Source: an uncultured Bacteroidales bacterium (GTDB taxonomy: Bacteria; Bacteroidota; Bacteroidia; Bacteroidales; UBA932). From it: a DNA stretch of 40,727 bases. Position 1 is the stretch's first letter, and each line of letters starts with the position of its first letter. The DNA is taken from contig CALVDI010000019.1 of the NCBI GenBank assembly GCA_944326225.1, positions 1 through 40,727 of the forward strand, in the 5' to 3' direction. Both the position numbers and the translations under genes were made by a program. Of this stretch, positions 10,322 to 29,147 are shown one piece after another. The notes beneath the pieces were generated by a model. It had not been told where the DNA came from, ran no database searches, and saw only the letters and a list, made by a program, of their open reading frames with translations.

Positions 10322-11446
10322 CTAATCAAGAGCGTCTACGATGCAGATTGCGACGCGGTTCTCCTCCGGTACTGGCGAGACGTTCTCGGTGTCTCCCTTG
10401 TAGGCCACGGTGATCCTGTCGGCCTCGATGCCTGCGGCGATCAGGGCCTCAGCGACGTTCTCCGCCCTGTTCCTGGAGAGTTCCATGTTGCGCTCGGCAG
10501 TGCCTGTCTCCCTGTCGGCGTGTCCCGTGACGGTCACGCGCGTGCCGGGATTGGACACCAGCAGGGATGCTACGACAGAGATCTTTCCCCTTGCCTCATC
10601 GCTCAGCTCGCTGCTGCCGATAGCGAAGTATACGCTGCTCTCCACGGGAGCGAAGTCGAGCGTCCCTGTCTCCTGCACCGGTCCTGCCTCCGCCACGGCC
10701 ACCGCAGCGGGCACGGGCTCCGGAGCGGGCTGCGGCTCCTCAGCTGCCACGGGGACCACCTCCACGGGTTCGGGCTCCGCGGGACTCTCCTTGCGGAGCT
10801 TGCCTATCCTGAACGTAAGTCCCGCCAGGGCGCCGAGCTGCCAGTCCACGTAGCTGCCCTTCTTGGAGTTGAAGGCGTCTCCGAGGACGTTGGCGTTGAC
10901 CTCGAGGTTGAAGTGCAGCCAGTCCGTGATGCGCACTCCCATTCCCACGCCGAAGCGTCCTGCCGGGAAGACCTTGCTTCCGCCCCAGAGCAGGTTGTCA
11001 TCGGGAAGGCGCGGTCCGAGGTTCTGCGCGTCGGAGTTGTTGAAGGCTCCGTTCACGCCCACACCGGCGAACAGGTAGGGGCTCACTGCCCGGCTCACGC
11101 GGTATCCTGCTATGCCGCACAGGTCGACGAGGACGTCAATGTTGCCCTGAAGGTAGTTGAACTTGTATACGCTCGTGCGTGCGTCCACCACGGCGCCCAT
11201 GGCCTGCCATCCGCTCAGGCCGGCGCGGAGGCCCCACACCGGGGTGAACTGGTACCCGAAGTACAGGGACGCCGCGGGAGAGATCAGGTCGCCGAGGCTC
11301 GTCTCCCCGACCGTCTGGCCTATTCCGCCCTGGACAGTGATCAGCCAGTGGCCGCTGAACTCGTCGTAACTCTTCTCTTTCTCCTGCCCGAGCATCGCGC
11401 CGGACGCGAGCAGAAGCACTGCGATTGCTAGTAATGTCTTCTTCAT
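10322..11446 (-). CDS. OmpA-family outer-membrane protein, copy 1
   Basis: A 374-aa protein with a signal peptide (cleavage near A-M-L-G-Q at 18-20), a glycine/aromatic-rich beta-barrel to about residue 215, a Pro/Glu/Ala linker (about 220-262), and a C-terminal OmpA domain. The latter has T-V-T-G-H-A-D-R-E and the N-M-E-L-S-x-x-R-A-E-N-V peptidoglycan-binding pattern. It follows the giant coiled-coil lipoprotein gene on the same strand, with a hairpin between them. A close paralogue sits at 26207-27352 after the second coiled-coil gene. Many stretches are nearly identical (for example around V-R-I-T-D-W-L-H-F-N-L-E-V-N), while linkers and signal peptides differ. Pairing suggests it anchors or exports the stalk protein; that role is inference. 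Confidence 0.9.
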   Translation of the reverse strand: MKKTLLAIAVLLLASGAMLGQEKEKSYDEFSGHWLITVQGGIGQTVGETSLGDLISPAASLYFGYQFTPVWGLRAGLSGWQAMGAVVDARTSVYKFNYLQGNIDVLVDLCGIAGYRVSRAVSPYLFAGVGVNGAFNNSDAQNLGPRLPDDNLLWGGSKVFPAGRFGVGMGVRITDWLHFNLEVNANVLGDAFNSKKGSYVDWQLGALAGLTFRIGKLRKESPAEPEPVEVVPVAAEEPQPAPEPVPAAVAVAEAGPVQETGTLDFAPVESSVYFAIGSSELSDEARGKISVVASLLVSNPGTRVTVTGHADRETGTAERNMELSRNRAENVAEALIAAGIEADRITVAYKGDTENVSPVPEENRVAICIVDALD

Positions 11447-11554: not shown

Positions 11555-14500
11555 CTATCTCTCGGCCTTGATGGTGAACTTGATCTCAATGTTCTTGTTG
11601 TTGCCTTCATGAGCCTTGTCAGTAGCAACTACTCCGTTGTAGTCGAGCTGGTAGTCGATGGAGGCCTTGATGGTTACCTGCAGGTTGTTCTGCAGCATGA
11701 GGTTGTCTCCGTCGAAGGTGAAGATTCCGGTAACGGGATCGAAGTCCCATATTCCGGTGTATGTTCCACCGTCCTGAACCTCAACGACTACCTCAGACTT
11801 GTCACAGAAACTGAGGACTGCATCGTAGGCTTTCATGTAGTAGGACTCGCTCAGACCGGTAGGACCGTCGAACGTGTAGTACTCATGCTCTCTCTCTCCG
11901 CCTGTCTCAACCTCGGCGATGTTCCTCCATACCCTGTTGTCCGGGTTGAGGTTGTCCTGAACGAGGGCCATGATGTCGACATACTGCCATGCCTTCACCT
12001 CGAGGTCCGTACCGTACTCCCTGTCAAAGCCGTTGGCCATGTGCTCGTCCTCGCCGTCGAAGAGAAGCTCGATGGGATCCGTGGCCGTGATGGTCACCTT
12101 CTTGGGTGTGAACTCAACCTTGGAGCCTCCCTCGATGGTTACATAGAGGATGGCGTTGAAGTCGTAGTCACGTCCCGTGAAGCCGTTCCAGTCAAGGTCG
12201 CTCATATCGAGGGATCCGTCGGGATTGACCTTCACGTCAGGTGCGGTGGGAGTGGGAACATTGACATATCCTGTGAGGGCGTTCTCCTTGGTGATGGGCT
12301 CGAATCTCACGCGGAGGTTGTCCTGGCCGTCATAGTTCTCTACATGGAAGTACTCGTTGAGGCGTACTATAGGGAAGGAGTACTTGCCTGCATGAGCACC
12401 GCTGTTGGGTATCTGGCCTCCGAGGTATGCGTGTCCTGTGAACTCGCCTGTCGAAACCACCACGCCTTCGTCGAACTCAAGCGAGTATACGGGATTGTCA
12501 ATGGTGGCGGTTGCGTTGAACTCGTATGTCACGCCGTACCATGTCTCCACAGTCGTGGTGAAATTGAACTCATCACCGAACTTATCGATATCCTTGGACG
12601 AAATCCTGATGTAAGCGGGGTTGGGCTCATCAGTCTCATTGGGATGGTTCTCCTTCAGGATGCCCAGGAATGTCCAGAGATCATCGTAAGGGATGTTGCT
12701 GCCCCTTCCGAGAGCCTCCTGATAAGGATAGTTGTCGAGGACTCTCCATGCGAGAGTGGTGTAGTCGTAATCAGTTGCACCGTATGCGTTGCCGTTGTCG
12801 GCGAGGGAAGCGATGAATGCGTTCTTGTCCTCGAAGAACTCGTCACCGGGGTATGCGTTGTCAAAAGGCACACTGCCAAGATCCTTAAAGTACTTGGACG
12901 AGCCGATGAAAGGTATGGACTGATTTCCGAGATCTATCGCGTTTCTGTTGGCCTTGGTGCGGTCCACGGGCATCTCGCCGAGGGTGTATGTCAGGTTGAT
13001 GACCACCTCGCTGTGCGCGTTGTCATCGGTGTATACCTTCTGGATGTCGTAGCGCACGTCGCGGCCTTTCTCGAACTGATAGCCGTCGATGGTCACGTCG
13101 ACTACCTGAGCGGCAAGACGGGACGATACCTCTATCACCACATTGCCCTCACCGACGATGTCGCTGGCGTCGGGGGCTCCAGTTCTCAGCAGGTCCTCGG
13201 CCTGTCCGCCCTCTACGGTACGGTCAAACTTCTCGAATCTGGGCGTTCCGTTCTTAAGAAGCTCCTCGATGTTCTCGGCGGCTCCGTCCTTTCCTGCGTA
13301 GTCTGTCTCCCAGTTCAGGATAGCGGCCTCGTCAAGGAAGAGAGGCTCCTGGGTACCGTTGTAGAGTATCTTGTGCTCCACGGCGCGCTCGTATGTCCAG
13401 GGGATCCTCTGCTCGTCACCCCATGCCATCAGCTGCAGGTTGAGGGTGTACCTTACATTGGTGATCTCGTAAGTGGTCTCTCCGCTGACCTCTCCCACTG
13501 TGTTGTATGAGCTGTTGTAGTAGAAGGTGTTGTATACGGTGATCTTGTCGCCCACGTTGTTGACGGGGTTCTCCTTCATGGAAGCGACCGCTCCGTAGCC
13601 TTTCTCCTCGTCCCTGGCCACATTGATTCCGAGGTAGCCGTAGGGATCGCTGGTGCTGAATGTGTATTCAAGCGCCAGGGAGCCCTCGGGGAGGAAGAGA
13701 GCCTTCTCGGCCTCGCTGATCTCCACGTACTCACCGCCGTAGTTGAACTTCAGGTCGTAGCCCTCATAGAAGGCCACCTCACCGGGATACTCGCTCCACT
13801 GTCTCTCAAAGTGGGCTGTGGTGTAATCGTAGACGGTCCTGTTGTCCTCTGCATTTACGAGTGCGTAGTTGCCGTCAAGAGAGGTGTTCTGTCTTTCCAC
13901 CTCCACGTACTCGCTGGTCACGTGGCTGCCCTCGGGCTTGTCCTTGTCGCATACGGTGAGGGCGATGTAGAAGTTCTGCATGTTCCTGGGAACAAGCGCC
14001 TCGATCTCCACGCGGCCGGGGAACTCTCCGAGCTCGACCTTGATGTCCTCACCGCTGATGTCCGTGGACTCTCCGGCTGCCGTGCGGTTGATGACGGGCA
14101 CCGCGCTGAGTGTGACGTTGCCCTCCTTTGCTGCCGCCACGATGTCAGCCGCAAGCTCGTTGGGCTTTACCTGGAATGTGGCGATGACGTTCTGGGTCTC
14201 GGAAACGGCCTGTCCGGCCACGGTGTAGGCGTATGACGACGCCATGCCGTCCTTGTACTCGGGAACGAATACGAGGCTCTGTATTCTGTTGATGAGCTCG
14301 CTGATGGTCAGGTCGTTGGCCTCTGTCCAGTCATCGACCTTGTTGCCGATGTTGTCCACGTCGTTCTTCAGGTCCTCAAAGTTCTCCTCGAGGGTCTTGA
14401 GTCTCTCGTCGATCTCGTCGATTCTCTTGTTGATCTCAGCGACGTTCTGCTCGAGCTTCTGTGTCAGATCTGCCAGGCCCTTGGCCATTTCCTCGCGGAG

Positions 14501-16168
14501 CTGGCCCTCCGTCTCCTCGAGCTGGGCTCCGAGGTCCCTCATGTAGGCCTCGAACTCGCTTCTGTCGAGCTTGTTCTTCTCGAGCTGGTCGATGGCGCCC
14601 CTGAGCTCTTCTGCGAGCTCATTGATGCTGAGCTGGAGACCGCTTATCTCCTCCGCAACGGAGGTCGCGAGGTCGTCTATCTTGCCGTTGAACTCCTCCT
14701 GGAGCCTCTTCTCGAGGTCGAGCATCTTCTGCTTGAGGGTCTCGTCCATGGTCTCGAGCTGGCCGATCTTGTCCTCAAGACCGCCCTTTGCGTAGATTCC
14801 GAGAGCCTTCACCAGGTTGTCGAGCTCACCGGCGACGGTCGTGAGCTTATCGTTCACTTCCTTGGCATATGCCATGGCCTCGTCAGCCGCGTTATGTGCT
14901 GCGTTGATCTTATCCTCAAGGCCGGGGATTACGATGGTCTCGAGATTCTCGATGTAGTCGTCGAACTTGCCGCTGAGGCCGGCGTAGTCGCTCTCGAGTT
15001 GTTTGAGGCGTTCGGCTATGTTCAGGTCCTCAAGCGCCTTGAGACCGGTCTCGACGGAGCTCATCCTGTTCTGCAGGGCGAGGATGTCACCGAAGATCTG
15101 CGAGAAGGTGACCTCGGCCGAGTCAACGGTAAGGTAGTCGTTCTTTATGGAGTCGACGGCGGCCTGGAGGTCAGCGATGTCCTCGCCGTGAAGTTTCTGG
15201 AGAGCCTCCACGGCAGCCTCGATGGCGGCCACGTTCTCGGTCAGGCCGGCCAGGAGCTCCATCTGATACTGGAGCTGCTCGTCAAGCTCGTTGATCCTGC
15301 CGTTGATCTCCTCGATGTCGGCGGCCACTTCCGCGAACTCGCCCCTGAACTCGTCGAGCACGCCGTTGATGCCGTCAATCTTCACGTTGAACTCGGACTC
15401 GATTGCGGAGAGGCTGGACTTCAGGGAGTCGATCCTGAGGTCGACCCTGCCTATGTGGTTGACGAGTGTGTTGTAGTTGTCATCTATCCTCTTCGAGAGC
15501 TCGTTAATCTTGGCAAGGTTGGCCTCGTCTCCCTTGGCGATCAGGTCCTGGAGCTCCACCTTGTCGTTCTTGATCTGGTCGGCCAGGGCGTCGATGCGGA
15601 CGCGGTTGGCCTCGTCACCGTTCTGGATCACGCTGTTGAGGTTGTTCACCTGGTTGGTGAGGTCGGCGATCTTCTCGTTGATCCTTGCGATGCTCTCCTC
15701 AACGTCCACGCTGCCGGAGTTGATGGCGTCATTGAGCTCCTTCTTGAGCTGCTCGATGGCAGCGAGAAGCTCCTTCTCCACATCGGCGATCTGGTCGACA
15801 GCGTCGTCGATGCGTCCGTTGAGCCTGTTCTCCTGCTCGGAGAGCTTGGTGTTGATCTCGGCGATGTTGCCCTCTACGGTCTCGATGTTGTCGTTGATCA
15901 GGTCGATCTGCTTCTGGAGACCCTCGTCCATATCCTGCAGGTCGCCCACGTTTCCGTTCAGAATGTCGATCAGGTCGTTGGCGTCGCTGATCGCTTCATT
16001 CATGTTCTTTAGCTGTTCTTCCAGGCTCGCCAACTGACCTGTCTCGAGGTTGTCAAGGCGGTCGTTGATCGCGTTGATGTCCTCCTCGTAGTCAGTACAG
16101 CCTGAAAACGCGAACACTCCGCACACCAGCGCGAGTGCCGCAATCACATTGAAAAAGTGTTTTTTCAT
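11555..16168 (-). CDS. Giant coiled-coil surface lipoprotein, copy 1
   Basis: A 1537-aa protein from the ATG at 16168; an ATG eight codons upstream is open but the conserved copy begins here. The signal peptide ends in lipobox F-S-G-C (Cys24), followed by T-D-Y-E-E-D, an acidic run like the surface-export signal of Bacteroidota lipoproteins. Residues about 25-626 are nearly continuous heptad-like coiled coil rich in Leu, Ile, Glu, Lys and Asn. At the boundary is R-I-Q-S-L-V-F-V-P-E-Y, a junction I know from Bacteroidales coil-plus-beta proteins. The remaining 900 residues look like beta-sandwich repeats rich in Tyr, Asp and Asn. The product is plausibly a long outer-membrane stalk or adhesin. 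A strong promoter lies upstream. Its 5' end is almost identical to copy 2, while the rest is diverged and higher in GC. Confidence 0.88.
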   Translation of the reverse strand: MKKHFFNVIAALALVCGVFAFSGCTDYEEDINAINDRLDNLETGQLASLEEQLKNMNEAISDANDLIDILNGNVGDLQDMDEGLQKQIDLINDNIETVEGNIAEINTKLSEQENRLNGRIDDAVDQIADVEKELLAAIEQLKKELNDAINSGSVDVEESIARINEKIADLTNQVNNLNSVIQNGDEANRVRIDALADQIKNDKVELQDLIAKGDEANLAKINELSKRIDDNYNTLVNHIGRVDLRIDSLKSSLSAIESEFNVKIDGINGVLDEFRGEFAEVAADIEEINGRINELDEQLQYQMELLAGLTENVAAIEAAVEALQKLHGEDIADLQAAVDSIKNDYLTVDSAEVTFSQIFGDILALQNRMSSVETGLKALEDLNIAERLKQLESDYAGLSGKFDDYIENLETIVIPGLEDKINAAHNAADEAMAYAKEVNDKLTTVAGELDNLVKALGIYAKGGLEDKIGQLETMDETLKQKMLDLEKRLQEEFNGKIDDLATSVAEEISGLQLSINELAEELRGAIDQLEKNKLDRSEFEAYMRDLGAQLEETEGQLREEMAKGLADLTQKLEQNVAEINKRIDEIDERLKTLEENFEDLKNDVDNIGNKVDDWTEANDLTISELINRIQSLVFVPEYKDGMASSYAYTVAGQAVSETQNVIATFQVKPNELAADIVAAAKEGNVTLSAVPVINRTAAGESTDISGEDIKVELGEFPGRVEIEALVPRNMQNFYIALTVCDKDKPEGSHVTSEYVEVERQNTSLDGNYALVNAEDNRTVYDYTTAHFERQWSEYPGEVAFYEGYDLKFNYGGEYVEISEAEKALFLPEGSLALEYTFSTSDPYGYLGINVARDEEKGYGAVASMKENPVNNVGDKITVYNTFYYNSSYNTVGEVSGETTYEITNVRYTLNLQLMAWGDEQRIPWTYERAVEHKILYNGTQEPLFLDEAAILNWETDYAGKDGAAENIEELLKNGTPRFEKFDRTVEGGQAEDLLRTGAPDASDIVGEGNVVIEVSSRLAAQVVDVTIDGYQFEKGRDVRYDIQKVYTDDNAHSEVVINLTYTLGEMPVDRTKANRNAIDLGNQSIPFIGSSKYFKDLGSVPFDNAYPGDEFFEDKNAFIASLADNGNAYGATDYDYTTLAWRVLDNYPYQEALGRGSNIPYDDLWTFLGILKENHPNETDEPNPAYIRISSKDIDKFGDEFNFTTTVETWYGVTYEFNATATIDNPVYSLEFDEGVVVSTGEFTGHAYLGGQIPNSGAHAGKYSFPIVRLNEYFHVENYDGQDNLRVRFEPITKENALTGYVNVPTPTAPDVKVNPDGSLDMSDLDWNGFTGRDYDFNAILYVTIEGGSKVEFTPKKVTITATDPIELLFDGEDEHMANGFDREYGTDLEVKAWQYVDIMALVQDNLNPDNRVWRNIAEVETGGEREHEYYTFDGPTGLSESYYMKAYDAVLSFCDKSEVVVEVQDGGTYTGIWDFDPVTGIFTFDGDNLMLQNNLQVTIKASIDYQLDYNGVVATDKAHEGNNKNIEIKFTIKAER

Positions 16169-16198
16169 AACTGTAATTAGTTTGTTACACATAGTAAT
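16013..16198 (-). repeat. Left arm of long inverted repeat shared by the two coiled-coil genes
   Basis: Positions 16013-16176 match 21897-22060 in reverse complement over 164 bp with one mismatch (16103 versus 21970, a silent Ser22 change). After a 4-nt length difference, 16182-16198 matches 21879-21895 exactly (17 bp, read ATTACTATGTGTAACAA). The block covers the leader, start codon, signal peptide and codons to about 52. Similarity drops abruptly beyond it on both sides. Confidence 0.95.
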
Positions 16199-16265
16199 TA
16201 TAATTAAAAAAAATTAAGTTTTCCATTGAAACTACCCCAACTATATGAGCAGCCAAAAACTCGCA

Positions 16266-16297
16266 CAAATATATTCAGTTTATATTTTCAAAACAAA
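16266..16297 (-). promoter_or_regulatory. Consensus promoter of coiled-coil gene 1
   Basis: On the minus strand TTTG (16294-16297), 20 bp, then TATATTTG (16266-16273): both elements of the Bacteroidota consensus at standard spacing. The predicted leader is about 90 nt. The -33 box sits in a nearly perfect AT-rich palindrome (16292-16316). The promoter is inside the segment bracketed by the inverted repeat. Confidence 0.8.
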
Positions 16298-16336
16298 TTT
16301 TTTTAAAAAAATTGTTAATAACTTATGTTTTGCCAC

Positions 16337-16804
16337 TTATCCAAGTCCGGTAAACCTGTCTCCGAACATATAAAACAGCGCGAGCCAGAAGAAAAAACGG
16401 GTGCCTTTGCCGATGAGCATGAAGAGGGCGCAGCGGCCGAAATGCAGCTTGTAGAAGCCCAGGCCTATGGCGAAGACATCGCCCACGAACGGCAGCCATG
16501 TCAGGAAGGCCAGCAGGGAACCGTACCTGTCTATCTTCGACTTCTGTTTCAGCAGGGTCTCCTCCTTGACGTGGAACCACTTCTCTATCCATTCCCATTT
16601 GCCGATACGGCCTATCCAGTAGGAGGTCAGACCTCCCAGCCAGTTGCCGGCAGTAGCGCAGAGCCACGATACCACCGGGTCTCCTCCGGCCAGAAGTATA
16701 CCTATTATAAGAAAGTCCGACGAAAAAGGGACGATGGTGGCGGCCACGAAAGCTCCGATGAAAAGGCCGATGTAGCCGAGGTCGAGCAGAAAGTTCAGGT
16801 CCAT
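16337..16804 (-). CDS. DedA/YqaA-like membrane protein (VTT domain)
   Basis: A 155-aa inner-membrane protein of the DedA/SNARE-associated superfamily, now linked to lipid scrambling or flipping. The N-terminal I-G-A-F-V-A-A-T-I-V-P-F-S-S-D-F, the G-N-W-L-G-G-L-T-S-Y-W-I-G-R block near 55-68, and F-L-T-W-L-P-F-V-G-D near 98-107 are typical of the short YqaA subgroup. It lies 3 bp after tadA, forming a fic-tadA-dedA operon on the minus strand. Coiled-coil gene 1 follows, but that gene has its own promoter. Confidence 0.88.
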   Translation of the reverse strand: MDLNFLLDLGYIGLFIGAFVAATIVPFSSDFLIIGILLAGGDPVVSWLCATAGNWLGGLTSYWIGRIGKWEWIEKWFHVKEETLLKQKSKIDRYGSLLAFLTWLPFVGDVFAIGLGFYKLHFGRCALFMLIGKGTRFFFWLALFYMFGDRFTGLG

Positions 16805-16807
16805 CGC

Positions 16808-17248
16808 CTATCTCCGTATCTTTTTGAAAAATTCTGTCATGACAGTGCCGCACTCCTCCGCCATGATTCCTTTTATGACTTTTGTCCTTGGATGCAGCAG
16901 GGACGGGGAGAACAGGGTGTAGCCACGCTTGGGGTCATCGGCTCCGTAGACTACCGCTCCGACCTGGGTCCAGGCCATCGCGGCGGCGCACATCGGACAC
17001 GGCTCGACTGTGACGTACAGGGTACATTCTGGAAGATACTTGCCTCCTATGTAACTTGTGGCTGCCGTCATGGCCAGCATCTCGGCATGGGCCGTGGGGT
17101 CGTACAGGGTCTCGGTCTGGTTGTGCGCCCGGGCGATGATCCGCCCCTCGCACACCACCACCGCTCCGATGGGGATCTCCCCTTCGGACTCAGCCCTCCG
17201 CGCCTCCTTCAGGGCCTCCCGCATATACTTCTCGTGATCAGTATTCAT
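16808..17248 (-). CDS. tadA: tRNA adenosine-34 deaminase (nucleoside deaminase family)
   Basis: A 146-aa zinc-dependent deaminase that converts A34 to inosine in tRNA-Arg(ACG). Zinc and catalytic residues are visible: H54-A-E56 and P-C-P-M-C (Cys84, Cys87). Length and the N-terminal M-R-E-A-L-K-E-A-R-R-A pattern match bacterial TadA. Guanine or cytosine deaminases share these motifs, so a small doubt remains. Its start overlaps the end of fic by 11 bp, implying translational coupling. Confidence 0.88.
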   Translation of the reverse strand: MNTDHEKYMREALKEARRAESEGEIPIGAVVVCEGRIIARAHNQTETLYDPTAHAEMLAMTAATSYIGGKYLPECTLYVTVEPCPMCAAAMAWTQVGAVVYGADDPKRGYTLFSPSLLHPRTKVIKGIMAEECGTVMTEFFKKIRR

Positions 17249-18338
17249 TGCCGTTCAATATTTTCCAGTAGCCGTTCTTCTTTGCGCCTGCTCTTTCTAT
17301 GATGCCTTTCTCCCTGAGCCGGTCAATTGCCCGCTTTATCGTGCTCCTCGACTTTTTAGTATTGGCTGCCATCTCTTCAATCTTGACAGATGGATTCTCC
17401 GCTATAAGTTGTAGGACAGCTATTTCTGTCAAGGATGCCTTTCCGGTCAGATTGTTTAAAGGTTCATTTTGAGCCTTTAAATTGGGCTTTAAAGGTTCAT
17501 TCCGGACCTTTAATCCGTCCGCTTTTATATGCAGGGTCCTGTTCCGCAAGTCGGCCCCTTCGTTCAGAAGGAGATGGCGCAAAAATCTTTCCAGCGGCTC
17601 TGTGGTGGCTGTTATGCCTTTTTTCAGGTCATTGTAATTGGCCCTGACAAGGGCATTTCGGAAAAACCACGAGTGTCTCTCGAAAGTATCGTTTCCTACA
17701 TTGAATCCGAAACTGCGGAGATATTTTATCAGGAATACCGCAGTTGTGCGGGTGTTGCCTTCTCCGAAGGGGTGAATCTGCCAAAGATTGGATATGAATC
17801 TTGCAATATGCCGCACAGCCTCATCGGCTGTCAGTCCCTCGTATGAAAAATCCCTTTCAGTAGAGATGTCGTGTTCCAGGGTCTCGGTTATCAGTCCGGC
17901 ACCGGCATATATTACTGTACCTCCGTCCAATACCCATTCTTTTTTGGTGATGTTATAGTCCCGGATGCGGCCGGCGAATTTGTAAATGCCTGTGAAAAGA
18001 TACCGATGGATACGGATGAGTTCAGCCGGAGTCATGGAGAATGCCTGTTCTGCGAGAAGTTCGGTGATTCTGTAAGAGACTGTGTCAGCCTCCTTTGTCC
18101 GCTCATCACTGCCGGTGTCTTCCCTTGCTGTGCGGCTTTCATAGTAGGACTCAATGCGCTGCCGTACTTCCCGAAGCGAGATGTCTCCCTCGATATGCTC
18201 GCGGGCGGTATCTATAAGGTACGCCGAGGGCTTCAGTCCGTCCACGTCCTGAAGTCCGATGGCCGTGCGCCATGCCTGCGCCCGCTCCGCCCTCGACGGC
18301 TCTCCCTGCCTTATATATTCCTCAAAATCCGTTATCAT
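17238..18338 (-). CDS. Fic-family AMP transferase with VbhA-like N-terminus and winged-helix C-terminus
   Basis: A 366-aa protein. The Fic core has H-P-F-G-E-G-N-T-R at 189-197, including the catalytic His, with the GNTR variant instead of GNGR. The first 70 residues (A-I-G-L-Q-D-V-D-G-L then I-E-G-D-I-S) resemble antitoxin-type VbhA domains fused to Fic proteins; I do not see a canonical S/TxxxEG inhibitory motif. The last 65 residues fit a winged helix-turn-helix, suggesting autoregulation. Between them an 11-aa unit (L-K-x-x-N-E-P-L) occurs twice, from a 33-bp tandem repeat at 17455-17501. The frame opens 33 codons upstream, but a promoter overlaps that part, so I start at 18338. It probably AMPylates a cellular protein; target unknown. 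Confidence 0.88.
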   Translation of the reverse strand: MITDFEEYIRQGEPSRAERAQAWRTAIGLQDVDGLKPSAYLIDTAREHIEGDISLREVRQRIESYYESRTAREDTGSDERTKEADTVSYRITELLAEQAFSMTPAELIRIHRYLFTGIYKFAGRIRDYNITKKEWVLDGGTVIYAGAGLITETLEHDISTERDFSYEGLTADEAVRHIARFISNLWQIHPFGEGNTRTTAVFLIKYLRSFGFNVGNDTFERHSWFFRNALVRANYNDLKKGITATTEPLERFLRHLLLNEGADLRNRTLHIKADGLKVRNEPLKPNLKAQNEPLNNLTGKASLTEIAVLQLIAENPSVKIEEMAANTKKSRSTIKRAIDRLREKGIIERAGAKKNGYWKILNGNEY

Positions 18339-18348
18339 AATAGCAGAG

Positions 18349-18379
18349 CAAAGATACGCAAAGTCGTCCACATGGCAAA
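18349..18379 (-). promoter_or_regulatory. Promoter of the fic operon
   Basis: On the minus strand TTTG (18376-18379), 19 bp, TATCTTTG (18349-18356). The -7 box ends 10 bp before the ATG at 18338, so the mRNA would have almost no leader. This also rules against the longer open frame as the start. Confidence 0.75.
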
Positions 18380-18419
18380 GTGACATTTTGGCAGAGTGTG
18401 CGGAGTGGCACTTAATTTG
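18375..18419 (+). promoter_or_regulatory. groESL control region with three octamer repeats
   Basis: Three similar octamers, GCAAAGTG (18375), GCAGAGTG (18391) and GCGGAGTG (18400), precede a near-consensus promoter, TTTG at 18387-18390 and TTAATTTG at 18412-18419 (21-bp spacing). No CIRCE/HrcA inverted repeat is present. The octamers overlap the fic -33 box and could couple both promoters. Confidence 0.45.
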
Positions 18420-18464
18420 TTTAACAAGTCTGTGCAAGTTGAAAACAACTAAAATTTAAAAGAT

Positions 18465-18734
18465 ATGAACATTAGACCTTTAGCAGACAGAGTGCTCGTA
18501 GAGCCCAAAGAAGCTGAGACCAAGACAGCAAGCGGAATCTATATTCCTGAGACAGCAAAAGAGAAACCCCAGCAGGGTAAGGTAATCGCTGTAGGCAGCG
18601 GCAAGAAGGATGAGCCCATGGAACTGAAAGTGGGCGACACCGTTCTCTACGGAAAATATTCCGGAACCGAGATTACCGTTGACGGCAAGGACTATCTGAT
18701 GATGCGTCAGTCCGACGTGCTCGCAGTTCTTTAA
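18465..18734 (+). CDS. groES: Co-chaperonin GroES
   Basis: An 89-aa GroES that caps the GroEL ring. The N-terminus ([11 protein letters not shown]), the mobile loop around residues 17-35 ([13 protein letters not shown]) and the C-terminal [11 protein letters not shown] and [11 protein letters not shown] blocks are diagnostic. groEL follows after 34 bp. The operon lies between the two inverted-repeat arms, so its orientation would change if the segment inverts. Confidence 0.97.
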
Positions 18735-18756
18735 TTCTGTTTTGTTTAACTTTTAA

Positions 18757-20397
<1,641 letters not shown>

Positions 20398-20431
20398 TAG
20401 GCTGACGGTACTCCCATATTTTGAGACAATG

Positions 20432-20469
20432 CTGCCGCAACCGTCTAGGATGACGATTGCGGCAGTTTT
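20432..20469 (+). terminator. Intrinsic terminator of groESL
   Basis: CTGCCGCAA (20432-20440) pairs perfectly with TTGCGGCAG (20457-20465), with an inner CGTC/GACG stem, followed by TTTT. It lies 35 bp after the groEL stop and isolates the recombinase gene. Confidence 0.85.
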
Positions 20470-20490
20470 CGTATTCTTTTCTGCGGCCGC

Positions 20491-20508
20491 TTGCATACAA
20501 TTTGCATA
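20491..20508 (+). repeat. Left 18-bp inverted repeat flanking the recombinase gene
   Basis: TTGCATACAATTTGCATA, itself holding two TTGCATA direct half-units. Its near reverse complement lies 4 bp after the recombinase stop, at 21777-21794 (16/18 identical). It may be a recombinase-binding or crossover site. Confidence 0.7.
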
Positions 20509-20512
20509 AAAC

Positions 20513-20548
20513 AACTAACTTATTCTCATACCACTAAATAAATTAGTT
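20513..20548. repeat. AT-rich inverted repeat just before the recombinase start
   Basis: AACTAACTTATT (20513-20524) pairs with AAATAAATTAGTT (20536-20548), 11 of 12 positions, with an 11-nt loop. It ends 4 bp before the ATG. A role as operator, leader hairpin masking the start, or recombinase-binding site is possible. Confidence 0.55.
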
Positions 20549-20552
20549 AATT

Positions 20553-21773
20553 ATGTTGAGATTTTCAAGAAAAGGAATCTCTGTGACCGTTGTACTGGAC
20601 AGGCGCAGAGCAAAAATGAGCGGATTGTATCCCGTGAAAATTGAAGTAGTCTGGCAGGGAAAGCAGAAATATTTCCCGACTGGTGTGGACATGTCTGCTG
20701 AGAACTGGAATAAAATGCGTATAAGACACAAGATAAGTGAGGAGACAATAGAGATTGAGAAATGTTTCAGCAGAATAAGGAACGAAGTTGCCGAAATGCT
20801 GGAGAAAGACAGTCTATCACTCAGGACGCTTGAGATACGGTGTGGACGATCATCGTGCTACAATGTCAACAAAGCCCTGCGCACAATGATGGAGGAGTGT
20901 GCGAGGGAAGGCAAGACCAACTCATATTACAGATACCGCTCAACTCTTGTCAATATTGAGAAATTTGCAGGGAGCAACGTACCGTTCTCATCGGTGACTG
21001 TGGACTGGCTGAAAAAGTGTGAGGATTTATGGATGCGTGAAGGCAAAAGCACGACAACAGTCTGCATCTACATGAAGACTCTCAAAAGTGTTATGTACAA
21101 GGCTATGGATGAAGGATATATAAGGCATTCGTCATTTCCTTTCGGAAGAGGAGGGTATGCTGTTCCCAAAGGAGCAGTACGCAAGATGGCCTTGAGCAAA
21201 AGCCAGATTAAGCGGATAGTAGAATACCGGGGGCCGTCAGATCTGGAGATGTACCGTGACTTGTGGCTGTTCTCCTATCTGTGCAACGGTATCAATTTCA
21301 AAGACATGCTCTTCCTTAAACACAAAGATATAGTAGACGGTGAGATTCATTTTATCCGCTCGAAGACCAGATATGCCTACGGCACGAGGAAAGTTATCCA
21401 TGCTAATATAAATCCTAAAATGCAGGAGATTTTGGACAAGTGGGGCAATCCGGCCATACGTCCTGACACTTGCCTCTTCAAATATGCTAAAGGTAATGAG
21501 GATGGTTTCAAGGCCGATATGCTTGTCCGCAAGATAGTCCGCAAATGCAACGCAGCTTTGAAAATAATTGCACAGGAACTGGATATTCCAGTATTTACCA
21601 CATATTCGGCCAGGCATTCATTTGCTACTGTTATGCAAAGAAGCGGAGCCGGGATATCATTTATTTCCGAATGTCTGGGACATTCCAGTCTCGTAGTGAC
21701 TGAAAATTATCTTGCTGGATTCGGAAGGGAAGAGAGGGTGCGGAATTCCGCACTTTTGACCGATTTTGACTGA
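20553..21773 (+). CDS. Tyrosine recombinase/integrase
   Basis: A 406-aa Bacteroidota-type tyrosine recombinase: an arm-binding-like N-terminus (1-95), SAM-like core-binding domain (about 105-195) and catalytic domain (about 212-395). Catalytic positions are K271, R354 (in Y351-S-A-R354), H377 (L-G-H-S-S) and nucleophile Y386 (T-E-N-Y-L). The first arginine position holds N245 in C-N-G-I-N, and the usual box-II His is Tyr; I recall similar variants in Bacteroidota integrases, so activity is not excluded. No phage or conjugation genes are near, so it is more likely a local DNA-rearranging enzyme than an element integrase. It sits 131 bp before coiled-coil gene 2, between the inverted-repeat arms, and is flanked by 18-bp inverted repeats. 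Confidence 0.9.
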   Translation: MLRFSRKGISVTVVLDRRRAKMSGLYPVKIEVVWQGKQKYFPTGVDMSAENWNKMRIRHKISEETIEIEKCFSRIRNEVAEMLEKDSLSLRTLEIRCGRSSCYNVNKALRTMMEECAREGKTNSYYRYRSTLVNIEKFAGSNVPFSSVTVDWLKKCEDLWMREGKSTTTVCIYMKTLKSVMYKAMDEGYIRHSSFPFGRGGYAVPKGAVRKMALSKSQIKRIVEYRGPSDLEMYRDLWLFSYLCNGINFKDMLFLKHKDIVDGEIHFIRSKTRYAYGTRKVIHANINPKMQEILDKWGNPAIRPDTCLFKYAKGNEDGFKADMLVRKIVRKCNAALKIIAQELDIPVFTTYSARHSFATVMQRSGAGISFISECLGHSSLVVTENYLAGFGREERVRNSALLTDFD

Positions 21774-21776
21774 AAA

Positions 21777-21794
21777 TACGCAAACTGTATGCAA
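21777..21794 (-). repeat. Right 18-bp inverted repeat flanking the recombinase gene
   Basis: On the minus strand TTGCATACAGTTTGCGTA, matching the left copy at 20491-20508 at 16 of 18 positions. It begins 3 bp after the recombinase stop codon. Confidence 0.7.
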
Positions 21795-21878
21795 ACCGGA
21801 AATACAATTGCCCATAGATTATCATTACTGTTGTGAGAATCACAGCTTATCCGCCGAGTGACACGCCATCACATTGTT

Positions 21879-22060
21879 ATTACTATGTGTAACAATTTAC
21901 AGTTATGAAAAAACACTTTTTCAATGTGATTGCGGCACTCGCGCTGGTGTGCGGAGTGTTCGCGTTTTCGGGCTGTACTGACTACGAGGAGGACATCAAC
22001 GCGATCAACGACCGCCTTGACAACCTCGAGACAGGTCAGTTGGCGAGCCTGGAAGAACAG
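21879..22060 (+). repeat. Right arm of long inverted repeat shared by the two coiled-coil genes
   Basis: Reverse complement of 16013-16198 as described for the left arm: 17 identical bp (21879-21895) and 164 bp with one mismatch (21897-22060). In this copy the 17-mer is part of a TTGTTA-N10-TAACAA palindrome that the left copy lacks. Confidence 0.95.
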
Positions 22061-25000
22061 ATTGAGGCCATCAGCGGTGCTTTGGAAGACGCCAATGGCT
22101 TGATCGATGTACTGCAGGGCAATGTAGGAGACCTTAAGGCCGCTGACGAGACCCTCGGTAAGCAGATTGATGCCATCAATGGTGAGATTGAAACCGTAAA
22201 AGGGGAGATTACCGATCTTGGCAAACAGATCTCGTCTCTTGAAGACGACTTGAACCGCAGAATAGACAGCGTTGTGGACGAACTCAAAGAAGCCGATTCC
22301 ACAAATGCCAAGAGAATCAGTGATCTTGCCGACAAACTGGAGGCAGCACAAGCTGAACTGGAGAAACTTATATCCGACGGTGACGCAGCCAATCTCGCCA
22401 AGATTAATGAGCTTTCAGAAAGGATAGATAACCTTTATGACGAGCTGATCAAGGCGATTAAAGACGGTGATCAGGCAAATGCAGAAGAGATCGGTGCTGT
22501 TGCAGATGACCTCAAGGCTCTCCGAGATGAATTCGATACTAAGGTTGAAGAACTGGCGGATCTGGTTTCTGCCGTCGCGCAGCTTAAGTCAGATCTCGAG
22601 AATCTTCAGGAACTGACATCAGGTCTTCCGGCGCTCGAAGAGCTGGTAAATGAGATAGCCGAAAGTTACCTCTCGATAGATGAGGCAAGTAAGACATATG
22701 CAACCATCAAGATGCTTGAGGACTCTATCGGAAAAGTCAATGGAAGGCTTGACCTGCTTGAGAGCCTTAACATAGGTGAGCGGCTTGGAAAGATAGAAGA
22801 TGTACTTATTCCCGGACTTCAAACACAGATAGACGACGTAAGGGCAACAGCTTCTGAGGCCAAGAGGATTGCAGAAACTGCGCTGAGCAAAGCAGAAGAT
22901 GCTCTTGGACAGATTGAAGTCCTGCAGGAGGCCCTGGGCTCATATGCGACATCCGGAGAACTTGAGGCCCACATGGAGTATCTGCTCAACATGGTTGAGA
23001 CTCTAAGCAAAAAGGACCTCGAGCTGGAAGGTCTCATAAAAGATCTGGAATCATCTGTGGCATTGAAGATTCTTGATGTCCAAAATAGTATTGATTCTCT
23101 CGATGACAAGCTTGATAAAGCCATAGAGGACATCAAGAATACTATGGCGACCAAAGAGGAACTCGATGCCAGGATCCAGGAGGTCATGAACATGATCGAT
23201 GAGACTGCCGACAAGATCAGCGAAGAAATGCTCAGGGAGATCAATGAGGCGACACAGAACCTGCAAAACCAGATCAATACCATCAACGGCCAGATTGAGG
23301 ACATCAACGAGGCCCTTGATTCCCTCGATGAAAGAGTAACCGAAATCGAAGGATGGAAAGATGATATTCAGGACCTTGAGAATAGAATCCAGAGTCTGGT
23401 ATTCGTCCCCGAGTACAATGACGGAAAAGCTACAGTACTGTCATACACCATCAACTCTGTTCCTGTATCCGACAGTATGGTGGTGACAGCAACTTTCCAG
23501 GTCACACCCGCCGCTCTTGCTGAGAATGTCATCAACCAGTATGACAATGTATTTGTCAACGTAATTCCCGTGCTGACAAGATCTGCTTCCGATGCTGCTT
23601 TCATAGCTTCAGCACAAGACAGAACTCTTCGTCTCAGTAAAGGTAAGGGAGCCGGCTATATCGATATGGAAGTGACAGTTCCTGTTACGACAGAAGACGA
23701 TATAGAACTTACTCCCGGGGCATTTGCCATCTCATTCTACGTAGCTTCAAAAGAAGAAGTTGAAGCAATCATAAATGACGACATGGCTATCGCGGATATG
23801 GATGCCGGCACCTACATTGCCAGCGATTATGTCCAGACTGCAGGCAAGGCGACAGCCATTGACGATACTTATGTTCTTTACAATGAAGTAGTTGGAAAAG
23901 AATATCCTTCGATGGATGAAGTTGTGGATGAGGTGAACTCTTACGAAAGGGCATGGTCGGTACTTAACAGAGAGGTGTCATTCTATGGAGACAACAACTA
24001 TGATGAAAAAGACGACGGTACTTACACCCTTCACATCAAGCTGGACGATGAGTACTATACTCTTGAAGAGGCCGCAGCTATGTTCAGAGCCAATGTGGCG
24101 GACATAACACCTGATTACAGCTACATCATCCAATACTACGACAGGCTGGATAATGCAGTTTCTTCCATTGCGGAATACTTCGATGTAACGGAAGAGGAAC
24201 CATACGGTCTTAAAATAGACATGGCCAAAGCGAGTGAGATGACAGATATTATCGGCTCGTACGTCTTTGCCAAGAACATGTTCACTTTCGGTGAAGACAG
24301 CAGGTACGGCGGTGGTCTTACCGTTGTCGAGAATACCGGCAAGTACAAAGTAATCAATCTGCCTATCAATATCAACATAGATGCCGCAAGGATTGACTGG
24401 ACCTATGACTTTGCTCTTGCGCATGCCAACGACAGTGAGAACCCTGCAGTGCCGAACATCCAGCCTATTGACAGTACTCTGTCATATATGGCCGAGAATC
24501 TCGGTGAAACCAGTCTTGCAGACATCCTCACACTCGAGCCCAAATTAACTGAAGTCCGCCTTGGTGATTCAGAGACTCCGATGGCTGCTCAGGATGCACC
24601 CGTCATAGCCTTCAGCAATGTCAACAAGCTGGATGACACTACCGGTTCGATTGACATATCAGTCATCAAGTATGACTTCTCTGCAGAGACAGAAAACGTA
24701 TACCACTTCACCAATACCTACTATCTTGAGGATTATATGGTTAACTGCACTGTCAACTTCACGCTTACCCTGGGTCAGATGCCCGGTGATATTTTCGTGA
24801 ACTACGAGCAGTTGCCCAGAGATATCAAATTCATGCTGCCTGGATCCGGCGATTTCGACACTATCGGTATTGATAACGGCTATACTAAGGCATTCAAGAT
24901 TCTCAATACCCAGAATCCCACATGGTTCACAGACGAGGCTCAGCTTACAAGCTCAATGCAGGTCAACGATATGACAAGATTCACGACTTACAGAGACGGT

Positions 25001-26107
25001 GAGATACTTAACGGTTATGAGTCCGTAGAGAACACTTCACAGAATCCAGTCTACACAAGGCTCTCGGTAGAACCTGATGCTGAGTATCCCAGCGGTTCTT
25101 ACGTAAGGGTAAGCTCATCGCAGATAACAGCTGTAGGCAATGTATTTGACTTCATCACTGAGATCAATACATGGTATGGTGTAACTTACACATACACAAA
25201 TAGCGGAAAGGTAAGCGGGCCTGAATTTGCACTCGACTACATACATACGCACGTTTATGGCTATGACGGACCCAATCCCTATGTTCAGCTCGACTACCAT
25301 CTCAACGGCAACGGTGTATATGTCATCGATGAGGCCAATCTCAAGAACTACTTCGAGGTAACCGGTCTGCCGGAAGGATTCGAGGGTGAGCTTACAGTCA
25401 GATTCGAGACTCTCACACAGGAGAATCCCGCAGAGGGCTATAAGAATGTACCTTCTATTCCTGTCCTCAATGTAAACAACGAGACCGGCTCATTGGGCGA
25501 GTACACCATTGACTGGGCACAGTATACTGCCCGTGACCTGAATATCAGGGCAACTCTTGTCGCCTCGGCCAACGAGACTACGACTGAGGAGATTGAGCTC
25601 AACAGCCTTGACCTTACAGTTCAGGTATATCCTCTGGTTGAAAGCGCGTCGATGAAGACTTCCGAGGATCTCGACTACTATGGCAACAACTACGTAATGG
25701 ACGGTGATTACATCATCCTGAACAGAGAGGCCAACGAGACAGTGACCATCAGGCTCTGGGAGTATGTCAATGCATTTGCCAGGTTCAGCGACGGCAAGAA
25801 CTTCGTTCCTTACGAGAATGCCGGCGGAGATCGTCATGAGAACCTTATTTATGTAAACCAGAACAGCGCGATGACAATCTATGGTGCAACACTGGTATTT
25901 GACGACAACTATGATGCCATCTCAGGTGACCAGAGAAGACTGCTCGACTACGATGCAGCAGCCGGTACTGTAATATACCACGCTGAGGATGGAGAGATCG
26001 CAAACCCGATCTACATCACTGTCGAGGGAGATATGCTCTACTACCTGGACTACAACCATGTGGAAGCATATCCTGTGACTATAAAGATCAAACTTCAGGA
26101 CATGTAG
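21905..26107 (+). CDS. Giant coiled-coil surface lipoprotein, copy 2
   Basis: A 1400-aa paralogue of the minus-strand giant. The first 52 codons, including lipobox Cys24 and the acidic T-D-Y-E-E-D, are the same protein sequence. Residues about 53-492 are heptad-like coiled coil, roughly 130 residues shorter than in copy 1. The R-I-Q-S-L-V-F-V-P-E-Y junction follows, then about 900 residues of beta-rich, Tyr/Asp/Asn-rich domains that are only distantly similar to copy 1. Base composition is more AT-rich and codon choice less biased than in copy 1, suggesting lower or rarer expression. No consensus promoter is found in the 131 bp upstream. A paired ompA-like gene follows after a hairpin. Likely surface stalk; function unknown. 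Confidence 0.88.
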   Translation: MKKHFFNVIAALALVCGVFAFSGCTDYEEDINAINDRLDNLETGQLASLEEQIEAISGALEDANGLIDVLQGNVGDLKAADETLGKQIDAINGEIETVKGEITDLGKQISSLEDDLNRRIDSVVDELKEADSTNAKRISDLADKLEAAQAELEKLISDGDAANLAKINELSERIDNLYDELIKAIKDGDQANAEEIGAVADDLKALRDEFDTKVEELADLVSAVAQLKSDLENLQELTSGLPALEELVNEIAESYLSIDEASKTYATIKMLEDSIGKVNGRLDLLESLNIGERLGKIEDVLIPGLQTQIDDVRATASEAKRIAETALSKAEDALGQIEVLQEALGSYATSGELEAHMEYLLNMVETLSKKDLELEGLIKDLESSVALKILDVQNSIDSLDDKLDKAIEDIKNTMATKEELDARIQEVMNMIDETADKISEEMLREINEATQNLQNQINTINGQIEDINEALDSLDERVTEIEGWKDDIQDLENRIQSLVFVPEYNDGKATVLSYTINSVPVSDSMVVTATFQVTPAALAENVINQYDNVFVNVIPVLTRSASDAAFIASAQDRTLRLSKGKGAGYIDMEVTVPVTTEDDIELTPGAFAISFYVASKEEVEAIINDDMAIADMDAGTYIASDYVQTAGKATAIDDTYVLYNEVVGKEYPSMDEVVDEVNSYERAWSVLNREVSFYGDNNYDEKDDGTYTLHIKLDDEYYTLEEAAAMFRANVADITPDYSYIIQYYDRLDNAVSSIAEYFDVTEEEPYGLKIDMAKASEMTDIIGSYVFAKNMFTFGEDSRYGGGLTVVENTGKYKVINLPININIDAARIDWTYDFALAHANDSENPAVPNIQPIDSTLSYMAENLGETSLADILTLEPKLTEVRLGDSETPMAAQDAPVIAFSNVNKLDDTTGSIDISVIKYDFSAETENVYHFTNTYYLEDYMVNCTVNFTLTLGQMPGDIFVNYEQLPRDIKFMLPGSGDFDTIGIDNGYTKAFKILNTQNPTWFTDEAQLTSSMQVNDMTRFTTYRDGEILNGYESVENTSQNPVYTRLSVEPDAEYPSGSYVRVSSSQITAVGNVFDFITEINTWYGVTYTYTNSGKVSGPEFALDYIHTHVYGYDGPNPYVQLDYHLNGNGVYVIDEANLKNYFEVTGLPEGFEGELTVRFETLTQENPAEGYKNVPSIPVLNVNNETGSLGEYTIDWAQYTARDLNIRATLVASANETTTEEIELNSLDLTVQVYPLVESASMKTSEDLDYYGNNYVMDGDYIILNREANETVTIRLWEYVNAFARFSDGKNFVPYENAGGDRHENLIYVNQNSAMTIYGATLVFDDNYDAISGDQRRLLDYDAAAGTVIYHAEDGEIANPIYITVEGDMLYYLDYNHVEAYPVTIKIKLQDM

Positions 26108-26206: not shown

Positions 26207-27352
26207 ATGAAAAGAATACTGACAATTACGATACTGTTTCTCACAGCGGGAGTTCTGTGGGGACAGCAGAAAGATAGGTCATACGATGAGTTCAGCGGCC
26301 ACTGGCTGATTACCGTCCAGGGCGGAATAGGTCAGACAATAGGCGAGACGTCTTTCGGAAGTCTTATATCTCCTGCCGCCTCTTTGTCTTTCGGATACCA
26401 GTTTACTCCCGTGTGGGGCCTGCGTGCCGGTGTGAGCGGCTGGCAGGCTAAGGGTGCCGTGGTGGACGCTACCACGAGCGTGTACCGCTACAACTACATA
26501 CAGGGCAACATTGATGTCCTCGTCGACCTGTGCGGTATAGCCGGCTACCGTGTGAGCCGGGCAGTGAGCCCCTACCTGTTCGCGGGTATCGGTGTGAACA
26601 GTGCATTCAACAATAAGGAGGCCCAGGATCTTGGTCCGCGCCTTCCCGATGGCAACCTGCTTTGGGGAGGAAGCAAGATTCTCCCGGCCGGACGCTTCGG
26701 CGTGGGCATGGGCGTGCGCATCACGGACTGGCTGCACTTCAACCTCGAGGTCAACGCCAACGTTCTCGGAGACGCCTTCAATTCCAAGAAAGGCAGCGCG
26801 GTGGATTGGCAGCTCGGCGCGCTGGCGGGCTTCACGTTCAGGATAGGCCTGAAGAAAGACAAGCCGGAGGATGAGATCCTTGTGGTGGAATCTGCTCCCG
26901 TAGCTGAGCCAGAGTCGGTTGCGGAGCCTGAACCCGTGGCCGAGCCTGTACCCGAGCCAGCCGTAGCTGCCACGGCTGCTGCTGAGTCGTCCCTCGAGGG
27001 GGGCGAGTACACCGCTCCCGCCTTTGAGGCCGTGGAGAAGAACATCTTCTTCCTCATCGGTCAGAGTTCGATCAGGGAGAGCGAAACCTCAAAGGTGGAC
27101 GAGGTGGTGTCCCTGCTCAGAGAGAACCCTCAGACGAGTGTGACCGTGACTGGCCACGCTGACAGGGAGACCGGCACTGCCGAGCGCAACATGGACCTCT
27201 CCAAAGAGAGAGCCGAGAACGTCGCCGCGGCCCTGATTGCCGCCGGCATCGAGGCCGACAGGATCACCGTTGCCTACAAGGGCGACACCGAGAACGTCTC
27301 TCCCGTCGCGGAGGAGAACCGCGTGGCCGTCTGCGTGGTCGCTGCCGAGTAG
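26207..27352 (+). CDS. OmpA-family outer-membrane protein, copy 2
   Basis: A 381-aa paralogue of copy 1 with the same plan: signal peptide ending near L-W-G-Q, beta-barrel to about 216, a V-A-E-P-repeat linker (about 225-260), and an OmpA peptidoglycan-binding domain with T-V-T-G-H-A-D-R-E and N-M-D-L-S-x-x-R-A-E-N-V. The barrel is largely conserved with copy 1, while signal peptide and linker differ. Conserved pairing of an ompA-like gene with each coiled-coil gene implies a functional two-protein unit, for example stalk plus cell-wall-anchored outer-membrane base. Confidence 0.9.
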   Translation: MKRILTITILFLTAGVLWGQQKDRSYDEFSGHWLITVQGGIGQTIGETSFGSLISPAASLSFGYQFTPVWGLRAGVSGWQAKGAVVDATTSVYRYNYIQGNIDVLVDLCGIAGYRVSRAVSPYLFAGIGVNSAFNNKEAQDLGPRLPDGNLLWGGSKILPAGRFGVGMGVRITDWLHFNLEVNANVLGDAFNSKKGSAVDWQLGALAGFTFRIGLKKDKPEDEILVVESAPVAEPESVAEPEPVAEPVPEPAVAATAAAESSLEGGEYTAPAFEAVEKNIFFLIGQSSIRESETSKVDEVVSLLRENPQTSVTVTGHADRETGTAERNMDLSKERAENVAAALIAAGIEADRITVAYKGDTENVSPVAEENRVAVCVVAAE

Positions 27353-27712: not shown

Positions 27713-27767
27713 CCGGCCCGGGCTTGCCTCAAGCAGCGGGAGGGCCCGCGCCAATCAGATGGGTAAT

Positions 27768-27801
27768 TTTGCAGATAATCTAAATAATTTTACTAAGTTT
27801 G
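27768..27801 (+). promoter_or_regulatory. Promoter of the TM2 gene cluster
   Basis: TAAGTTTG (27794-27801) is an exact -7 match, with TTTG at 27768-27771 (22-bp spacing, slightly long). A second TAATTTTG at 27764-27771 also fits a -7 box. Confidence 0.5.
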
Positions 27802-27821
27802 TAGGAAATAAACTTTTTTCT

Positions 27822-28238
27822 ATGGCACTCATTAACTGTAAAGAATGTGGACAGTCCGTATCTGACTCTGCATCAGTATGTCCTCATTGCGGCGCTCCTG
27901 TCGTGAAAGATGTGTTCTGCACCAACTGCGGAGTGAAAATGCCGCAGGATATGAAATACTGTCCCCAGTGCGGCGCTCCGAATCCGGGTTATCGGAACAA
28001 GTATCCCAAAGACAGGCTTACTGCGGGTCTTCTCGCCATATTTCTGGGAGGTCTGGGCATCCACTATTTTTATATGGACAAGTCGACGGCCGGTCTCCTC
28101 TCGATACTCCTGTCGCTGTGTACCTGCGGAATATGGCAGATTGTCATGCTGATTCAGGGTATTATCATACTCACCATGACCGATGGGGATTTTAACGAAA
28201 AATATTACTATACTGACAAGAAGTTCCCCCTTTTCTAA
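27822..28238 (+). CDS. Zinc-ribbon TM2-domain membrane protein
   Basis: A 138-aa protein with two zinc-ribbon knuckle pairs (Cys6/9 with 20/23, Cys33/36 with 47/50) and a TM2 domain: two hydrophobic helices at about 67-83 and 90-120 with G-G-L-G-I-H-Y-F-Y between. The frame is open from 27759, but the ATG at 27822 starts the recognisable ribbon and lies 20 bp after the -7 box. TM2 proteins are small membrane proteins of unknown job. Next gene starts 19 bp downstream. Confidence 0.88.
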   Translation: MALINCKECGQSVSDSASVCPHCGAPVVKDVFCTNCGVKMPQDMKYCPQCGAPNPGYRNKYPKDRLTAGLLAIFLGGLGIHYFYMDKSTAGLLSILLSLCTCGIWQIVMLIQGIIILTMTDGDFNEKYYYTDKKFPLF

Positions 28239-28257
28239 TTTAAAGAATAGAAGTTAT

Positions 28258-29067: not shown

Positions 29068-29138
29068 TGACCTATGGTGTAATGGTAGCACTACAGATTT
29101 TGGTTCTGTCTGTAGAGGTTCGAATCCTCTTAGGTCAA
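29068..29138 (+). tRNA. tRNA-Gln (anticodon UUG)
   Basis: A 71-nt cloverleaf. The acceptor stem TGACCTA pairs with TAGGTCA (7 bp), the anticodon stem ACAGA pairs with TCTGT around the loop TTTTGGT giving anticodon TTG, and the T-arm has AGAGG-TTCGAAT-CCTCT. The discriminator is A; CCA is not encoded. A long open frame running through it from 29067 is spurious at its start. Confidence 0.95.
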
Positions 29139-29147
29139 CAGAAACAC

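Follow-up and report, generated by a model that had tools for sequence, protein, structure and literature searches.

A predicted promoter-inversion switch between two lipoprotein–OmpA operons in a Candidatus Coprenecus-like genome

The locus described here is found on contig CALVDI010000019.1 of an uncultured Bacteroidales bacterium (GenBank assembly GCA_944326225.1), a Candidatus Coprenecus-like metagenome-assembled genome (MAG; 1.99 Mb, 83% complete). The stretch analysed, referred to as the window, comprises positions 1 to 40,727 of this contig and harbors two parallel operons, each composed of a large lipoprotein-like gene (lipoA or lipoB, collectively lipo) followed by an OmpA-family gene, which point outward from the arms of an inverted repeat. 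Inside the arms, the gene order is dedA, tadA and fic on the minus strand, followed by groES, groEL and a tyrosine recombinase gene (rec) on the plus strand (Table 1). This segment of a gut bacterium is considered below as a candidate expression switch, on the basis of the window and of related genomes; compared genomes, their loci and their contigs are denoted by G-, L- and C-numbers, respectively.

Table 1. Features of the locus (window positions)
Feature	Position	Strand	Remarks
OmpA-family gene, operon A	10322..11446	-	
lipoA	11555..16168	-	1537-aa lipoprotein-like protein, coiled-coil-like stalk
Homogenised arm A	16013..16176	-	leader and lipoA 5' end
Recombination core CTATGTG, arm A	16188..16194	-	inside common 17 bp, 16182-16198
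Predicted invertible segment	16195..21882		5,688 bp between cores; basis: core positions and inversion relative to 8 recombinase-free relatives
Predicted promoter facing lipoA	16266..16297	-	TTTG-N20-TATATTTG; also given as TTTG-N20-TATATTTGT at 16297-16265
Cargo dedA/VTT	16337-16804	-	
Cargo tadA-like deaminase	16808-17248	-	
Cargo Fic-domain gene	17238-18437	-	
Cargo groES	18465-18734	+	name from recognised translation
Cargo groEL	18769-20397	+	name from recognised translation
Putative arm-type recombinase sites before rec	20491..20509	.	TTGCATACAATTTGCATAA; proposed role
rec, tyrosine recombinase	20553..21773	+	Arm-DNA-bind_5, Phage_int_SAM_5, Phage_integrase
Putative arm-type recombinase sites after rec	21778..21797	.	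ACGCAAACTGTATGCAAACC; proposed role
Recombination core CTATGTG, arm B	21883..21889	+	inside common 17 bp, 21879-21895
Homogenised arm B	21897..22060	+	leader and lipoB 5' end
lipoB	21905..26107	+	1400-aa lipoA paralogue, coiled-coil-like stalk, C-terminal tandem beta-sandwich (model)
OmpA-family gene, operon B	26207..27352	+	

The inverted repeat at the 5' ends of the two divergent operons, noted in a preliminary description of this DNA, was confirmed. The arms have three exact runs in common, of 90 bp (16013-16102 and 21971-22060), 73 bp (16104-16176 and 21897-21969) and 17 bp (Table 1). The 164-bp part contains a single mismatch, which is silent (TCA/TCG), and is separated from the 17-bp run by 5 bp on one arm vs 1 bp on the other. 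Also as described, similarity falls abruptly beyond the arms: in ungapped comparison 91/150 sites of the lipo genes are identical at nt 156-306 (61%) and 61/150 at nt 306-456 (41%). A BLAST search of the own assembly with 15900-16400 returned only the two arms. A structure model of 910 aa of lipoB was poor (pLDDT 54), while one of the 340-aa C-terminal part reached a pLDDT of 83.8; its listed structural matches are mostly cadherin-type tandem sandwiches, with TM-scores up to 0.32. The lipo C-terminal profile gave a match in the own genome only, in a sample of 295 genomes of the order.

Over their first 96 nt, lipo genes of one genome have identities of 96.9-100% (5 pairs, 3 genomes) and those of different genomes 75-94%, save for the identical pair G013/G015. 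Sequence constraint as the cause of arm identity is ruled out, because these same nucleotides differ by 6-25% between genomes (G013/G015 excepted) and are 97-100% alike within them; the earlier view that identity at silent sites points to conversion agrees with these values. Concerted evolution of the arms is probably best explained by gene conversion, the 164-bp identity being secondary, and might come about, for instance, by branch migration that extends from the recombination junction into the homologous side. A copy on C50 of G005 runs counter to within-genome homogenisation, being 85-86% identical to its two sister copies over 156 nt. The two OmpA-family genes of the window display a patchy likeness, which ranges from 47 to 95% among 60-nt blocks and includes an exact run of 50 bp; this pattern suggests conversion there too.

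The rec gene has an intact frame of 406 aa with arm-binding, SAM-like and catalytic domains. Residues R354, H377 and Y386 align with XerA, and matches to the XerC and XerD models are far below the cut-offs of these models. A switch operated by a serine invertase (Hin/Mpi-type) is ruled out, as rec is a Phage_integrase tyrosine recombinase. The enzyme is assumed to be active. Matches to rec at E 1e-70 or better were found in 30 of 398 genomes of the family, the own genome included, and in 5/5 genomes of the genus that have a close relative of rec, it is located immediately upstream of a lipo gene. The word ATGCAAA is found ≤150 bp upstream of rec at 6/10 loci and TATGCAA ≤150 bp downstream at 6/10; ATGCAAA-like words occur within this distance at 5 or 6 of the 10 loci on each side and may be arm-type binding sites. 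At L101, from a distant relative, a perfect 18-nt inverted repeat (4153-4170 and 5673-5690) brackets the recombinase gene, perhaps a different switch layout.

The 17-bp element is located upstream of the coding identity and contains CTATGTG, followed by TAACAA. The pattern CTATGTGTAACAAA (≤1 mismatch) and the 11-mer TATGTGTAACA (exact) each occur twice in the own assembly, exactly at the arms, i.e., the 17-bp identity is more than chance. Among 19 genomes of the genus, the CTATGTGTAACAAA pattern was found in seven, which are exactly those with a strong match to the lipo leader, and the number of sites equals that of leaders (11 and 11; leaders were counted at E 6.5e-14 or better, a weak match in G008, E 7e-5, and a second place in G006, E 1e-3, being excluded). 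Variants of the site were also seen in other genomes. At L125 (G355) the site preceding lipo reads GTTACACATTGTAACAAAC, with the core in the reverse direction, and a promoter was not found nearby; at L124 (G195) two tandem direct copies of ACAATGTGTAAC are found just before a promoterless lipo gene beside rec. A further core-like 7-mer lies between the two sites of G326.

Bacteroidales promoters are described by the consensus -33 TTTG / -7 TANNTTTGY (available text of PMC8748976), and the intergenic region on the dedA side contains a motif that fits it, while a scan of the rec-side region before lipoB did not find a promoter motif. The same scan was applied to 27 lipo 5' ends at 23 loci in 18 genomes chosen for holding a site, seven from the genus of the window and 11 from a sister genus. 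The sister-genus genomes were taken from 15, of which 13 matched the site at ≤2 mismatches, nine of them exactly; the scan included these nine as well as G326 and G355, which have a 2-mismatch site before a lipo leader beside rec. Not included were G379 and G330, which gave no hit, and G380 and G344, in which the 2-mismatch hits fall on other contigs. A forward promoter at one lipo 5' end was found in 9/18 genomes (in G245 with one mismatch in the -33 box), and 6/18 have only a reversed promoter, located upstream between local inverted sites. None of the 18 has two promoter cassettes at the ends scanned, at the level of the motif, and this includes eight genomes that have two or three arms and at most one cassette each. 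A strict promoter was absent ≤700 bp after rec in 13 of 20 recombinase neighbourhoods, and four of these 13 belong to genomes of the scan: in G195 and G310 the cassette is found on a contig other than that of the rec neighbourhood, G245 has the one-mismatch promoter and no strict one, and in G355 a promoter was not found.

The sequence adjacent to the core follows the promoter. The half-site ATAAC is found just before the core at 8/9 promoter-facing ends vs 0/18 others (Fisher p 4e-6, with shared ancestry left in), and all six reversed-promoter cases have a second, oppositely oriented site upstream that holds the promoter-side half, which reads ATTAC in G326 and ATAAC in the other five. This distribution indicates that the promoter and the sequence to the left of the core move together, the sequence to the right remaining with the gene, and such an exchange of half-sites is what a site-specific crossover inside the core would predict.

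A different route to inversion would be RecA-type homologous recombination via the 164-bp arms, with rec a bystander or acting only in local promoter inversion elsewhere. The exact 73- and 90-bp runs could be used as substrate, and the 5' ends are homogenised within genomes, but the 7-bp core, where the promoter-linked change is found, lies upstream of the coding homology, on which grounds this homology was rejected as driver of the flip. Because, in addition, rec directly precedes lipo in the five genus genomes noted above and G310 has a two-gene layout despite diverged signal peptides, the RecA route is considered unlikely.

A past inversion of the segment is seen upon comparison with relatives that lack rec. 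In these genomes the order is plsC, g29067, dedA-tadA-fic-groES-groEL, g9111, sigma, g7359, tal (g-names denote starts of open reading frames (ORFs) in the window). G012 has the entire common order, and G017, G016, G014, G010, G007, G003 and G002 have the same block orientation with respect to the flanks that they hold, with g7359 relocated beside groEL in G016. In the window the common flanks are kept, and the dedA-groEL block, which resides between the two lipo operons, is reversed relative to these eight relatives. Relatives of groEL were found in 18/19 genomes of the genus; G001 and G011 were uninformative in the block comparison, and the groEL contig of G004 was left out. In addition, the rec-to-lipo sequence is nearly identical in the sister species G005 and G009, and past residue 35 the rec-side lipo protein of G009 is 68.6% identical (156 aa) to that of the dedA-side gene of G005 and 30.7% identical (163 aa) to that of the rec-side gene. 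These identities indicate that the two species carry opposite arrangements. The preliminary description had proposed recombination between the arms and an inverted interval, both of which are supported by the reversed block (with G008 mixed, see below) and by G005 and G009, the latter between species. Its account of a flip by exchange between the arms is supported as regards the inversion and not as regards homology as the driver, the crossover site being the 17-bp upstream element. It had also missed the tyrosine recombinase inside the interval and the promoter motif at one arm that would switch the operons.

Collectively, these observations strongly favour an alternate-expression switch, in which a recombinase-driven segment with the sole recognisable promoter selects one of two surface operons. 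According to this model the arms contain the sites on which the tyrosine recombinase of the interval would act, cutting and rejoining the DNA at the CTATGTG cores, such that the 5.69-kb segment flips together with groESL, dedA, tadA and fic. The only recognisable promoter of the lipo operons is at the dedA end of the segment; in the assembled orientation it would drive lipoA-ompA and, after inversion, lipoB-ompA, so that a cell would express one surface lipoprotein/OmpA operon at a time. The common leader and signal peptide would remain near-identical as a result of gene conversion between the paired arms.

Several observations weigh against this switch. In the enzyme, Y351 is aligned to the histidine of the HxxR motif in XerA, and NGINF occupies the usual place of Arg I. 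A promoter motif was found in 3.7% of trials with random sequence of the same composition, i.e., the motif of the window carries little weight by itself and its distribution in relatives is what counts; in three of the 18 genomes (G018, G015, G355) a promoter was not found. Both half-sites of the window read ATTAC, the promoter arm included, such that the window has no ATAAC contrast of its own, and lipoB is downstream of rec in the same direction, which makes read-through possible. The distant rec-free genome G008 is mixed, with the tRNA-Gln-like stretch of g29067 beside dedA as elsewhere; tal and lolC, however, are found on that side as well. Most of the compared genomes are fragmented MAGs, and the arms of G005 reside on separate contigs. 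Furthermore, both arrangements are known between species, not within one population, which would also fit a relic, i.e., arms made alike by gene conversion or by a recent duplication of the 5' ends, with no present flipping. The 97-100% within-genome identity over the first 96 nt, being homogenisation, fits such a relic as well; the inversion relative to eight rec-free relatives, the swap between G005 and G009 and the intact recombinase frame speak against it, and we regard it as very unlikely.

The layout of the switch is not confined to the window. Two outward arms on a single contig with a promoter at one end are seen in the window (5.69 kb), in G009 (9.2 kb, also with groESL; 98 nt of its second arm are known) and in G365, where the sites are 19.5 kb apart, the recombinase is inside, and the arms are identical over 130/130 bp, up to the contig end. 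In G310, a promoter segment of ~0.2 kb resides between two divergent lipo genes, whose diverged signal peptides indicate that a long coding identity is not necessary for this layout. Small promoter switches beside a recombinase are found in, among others, G006, G225, G326, G304 and G245. Misjoining of MAG contigs through the repeat is a further concern, as the contigs of G009, G319 and G365 end in arms; however, the longest exact repeat is 90 bp, a length that usual assembly word sizes resolve, the layout was also assembled in G009, G365 and G310, and a misjoin would merely exchange the two orientations. An assembly artefact is thus exceedingly unlikely.

Two further loci were noted. On another contig of G005 (L073, C132, 1-1114), among unrelated neighbours, the site is found at a third lipo 5' end that lacks a promoter, a possible distant target. 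G015, a MAG with 6% contamination, has two groEL copies (L071, L072), one of which precedes an ATPase-like gene and a lipo 5' end that lacks a promoter; a terminator-like stretch of groEL is present twice there. We tentatively suggest, as a broader view that may well prove wrong, that all surface-lipoprotein operons of the genome, distant ones included, draw on one promoter cassette, which the recombinase would move between them through flips of segments that range from ~0.2 to 19.5 kb or more. These flips would carry along essential chaperonin and metabolic genes, so that part of the core chromosome would be phase-variable. The starting point would have been a local promoter switch of the kind still found in the sister genus and in one Coprenecus species, to which extra target operons were added by capture.

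Similar arrangements are known from other bacteria. According to the available text of PMC2268961 and PMC5634654, the vpma/Xer1 system of Mycoplasma agalactiae has one promoter, several promoterless lipoprotein genes and an adjoining tyrosine recombinase gene; the recombination sites are proposed to lie in the 5' untranslated region, and expression is altered by DNA inversion. As far as described there, the likeness includes a single promoter, at least two promoterless targets and rec beside them (at the motif level), as well as a conserved 5' untranslated region with the site and a signal-peptide region common to the targets (in G310 the signal peptides have diverged). It differs in that the vpma genes are clustered, while here two lipoprotein–OmpA operons flank a segment with groESL and other unrelated genes, and in G005 an additional lipo gene resides on a different contig. 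Mycoplasma agalactiae belongs to a phylum distant from that of the present host. In the sap S-layer system of Campylobacter fetus, the sole promoter resides on a ~6-kb segment that flips between surface-protein genes of opposite orientation, whose 5' ends are identical. This inversion is largely RecA-dependent and has secretion genes as cargo, in contrast to the dedicated tyrosine recombinase and chaperonin cargo found here. A title cited in PMC5634654 states that C. fetus inversion also occurs without RecA function.

Within the Bacteroidales, the nearest system, likened by its description, is that of Bacteroides fragilis IVp-I and IVp-II, where the tyrosine recombinase BF2766/tsr19 inverts promoters and IVp-II is located between groES/EL and an outer-membrane-protein cluster (available text of PMC4747536). 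Common to both are the tyrosine recombinase, promoter inversion and the vicinity of groES/EL; in B. fragilis, however, each promoter segment is described as switching one downstream cluster, with groES/EL outside the segment. The B. thetaiotaomicron BT1927 S-layer gene encodes a surface protein and has its promoter between inverted repeats (PMC12548429), an ON/OFF switch of one gene; a two-target segment with housekeeping cargo is not described in the available part of that source. The present segment has inverted flanking sites, an outward promoter inside (at the motif level) and rec within, as expected of a tyrosine-recombinase promoter inverton, and both arrangements exist, between species. 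A literature search limited to open-licence papers found no account of a segment that has two targets and chaperonin cargo, and the switch is best read as a new variation on single-promoter inversion systems.

Two additional features are found between the right OmpA-family gene and the conserved flank and at the flank itself. In region 27759-28653, two small genes have zinc-ribbon-like sequence, and a TM2 domain is present in the first. The ORF called at 29067 begins with a tRNA-Gln (ttg; 29068-29139), and its start codon is therefore probably mis-set.

The loci discussed above form a comparative series in one family, from an ON/OFF promoter switch of ~200 bp to two-operon segments of 5-20 kb that carry housekeeping genes, groESL among them. 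If the proposed switch is correct, this series would illustrate an evolutionary path from simple phase variation to antigenic choice. It further suggests that programmed inversion, not slow rearrangement, underlies the order of genes and the contig breaks near groEL in some of these MAGs and, if the half-site rule holds, the state of the switch would be readable from metagenome sequence.

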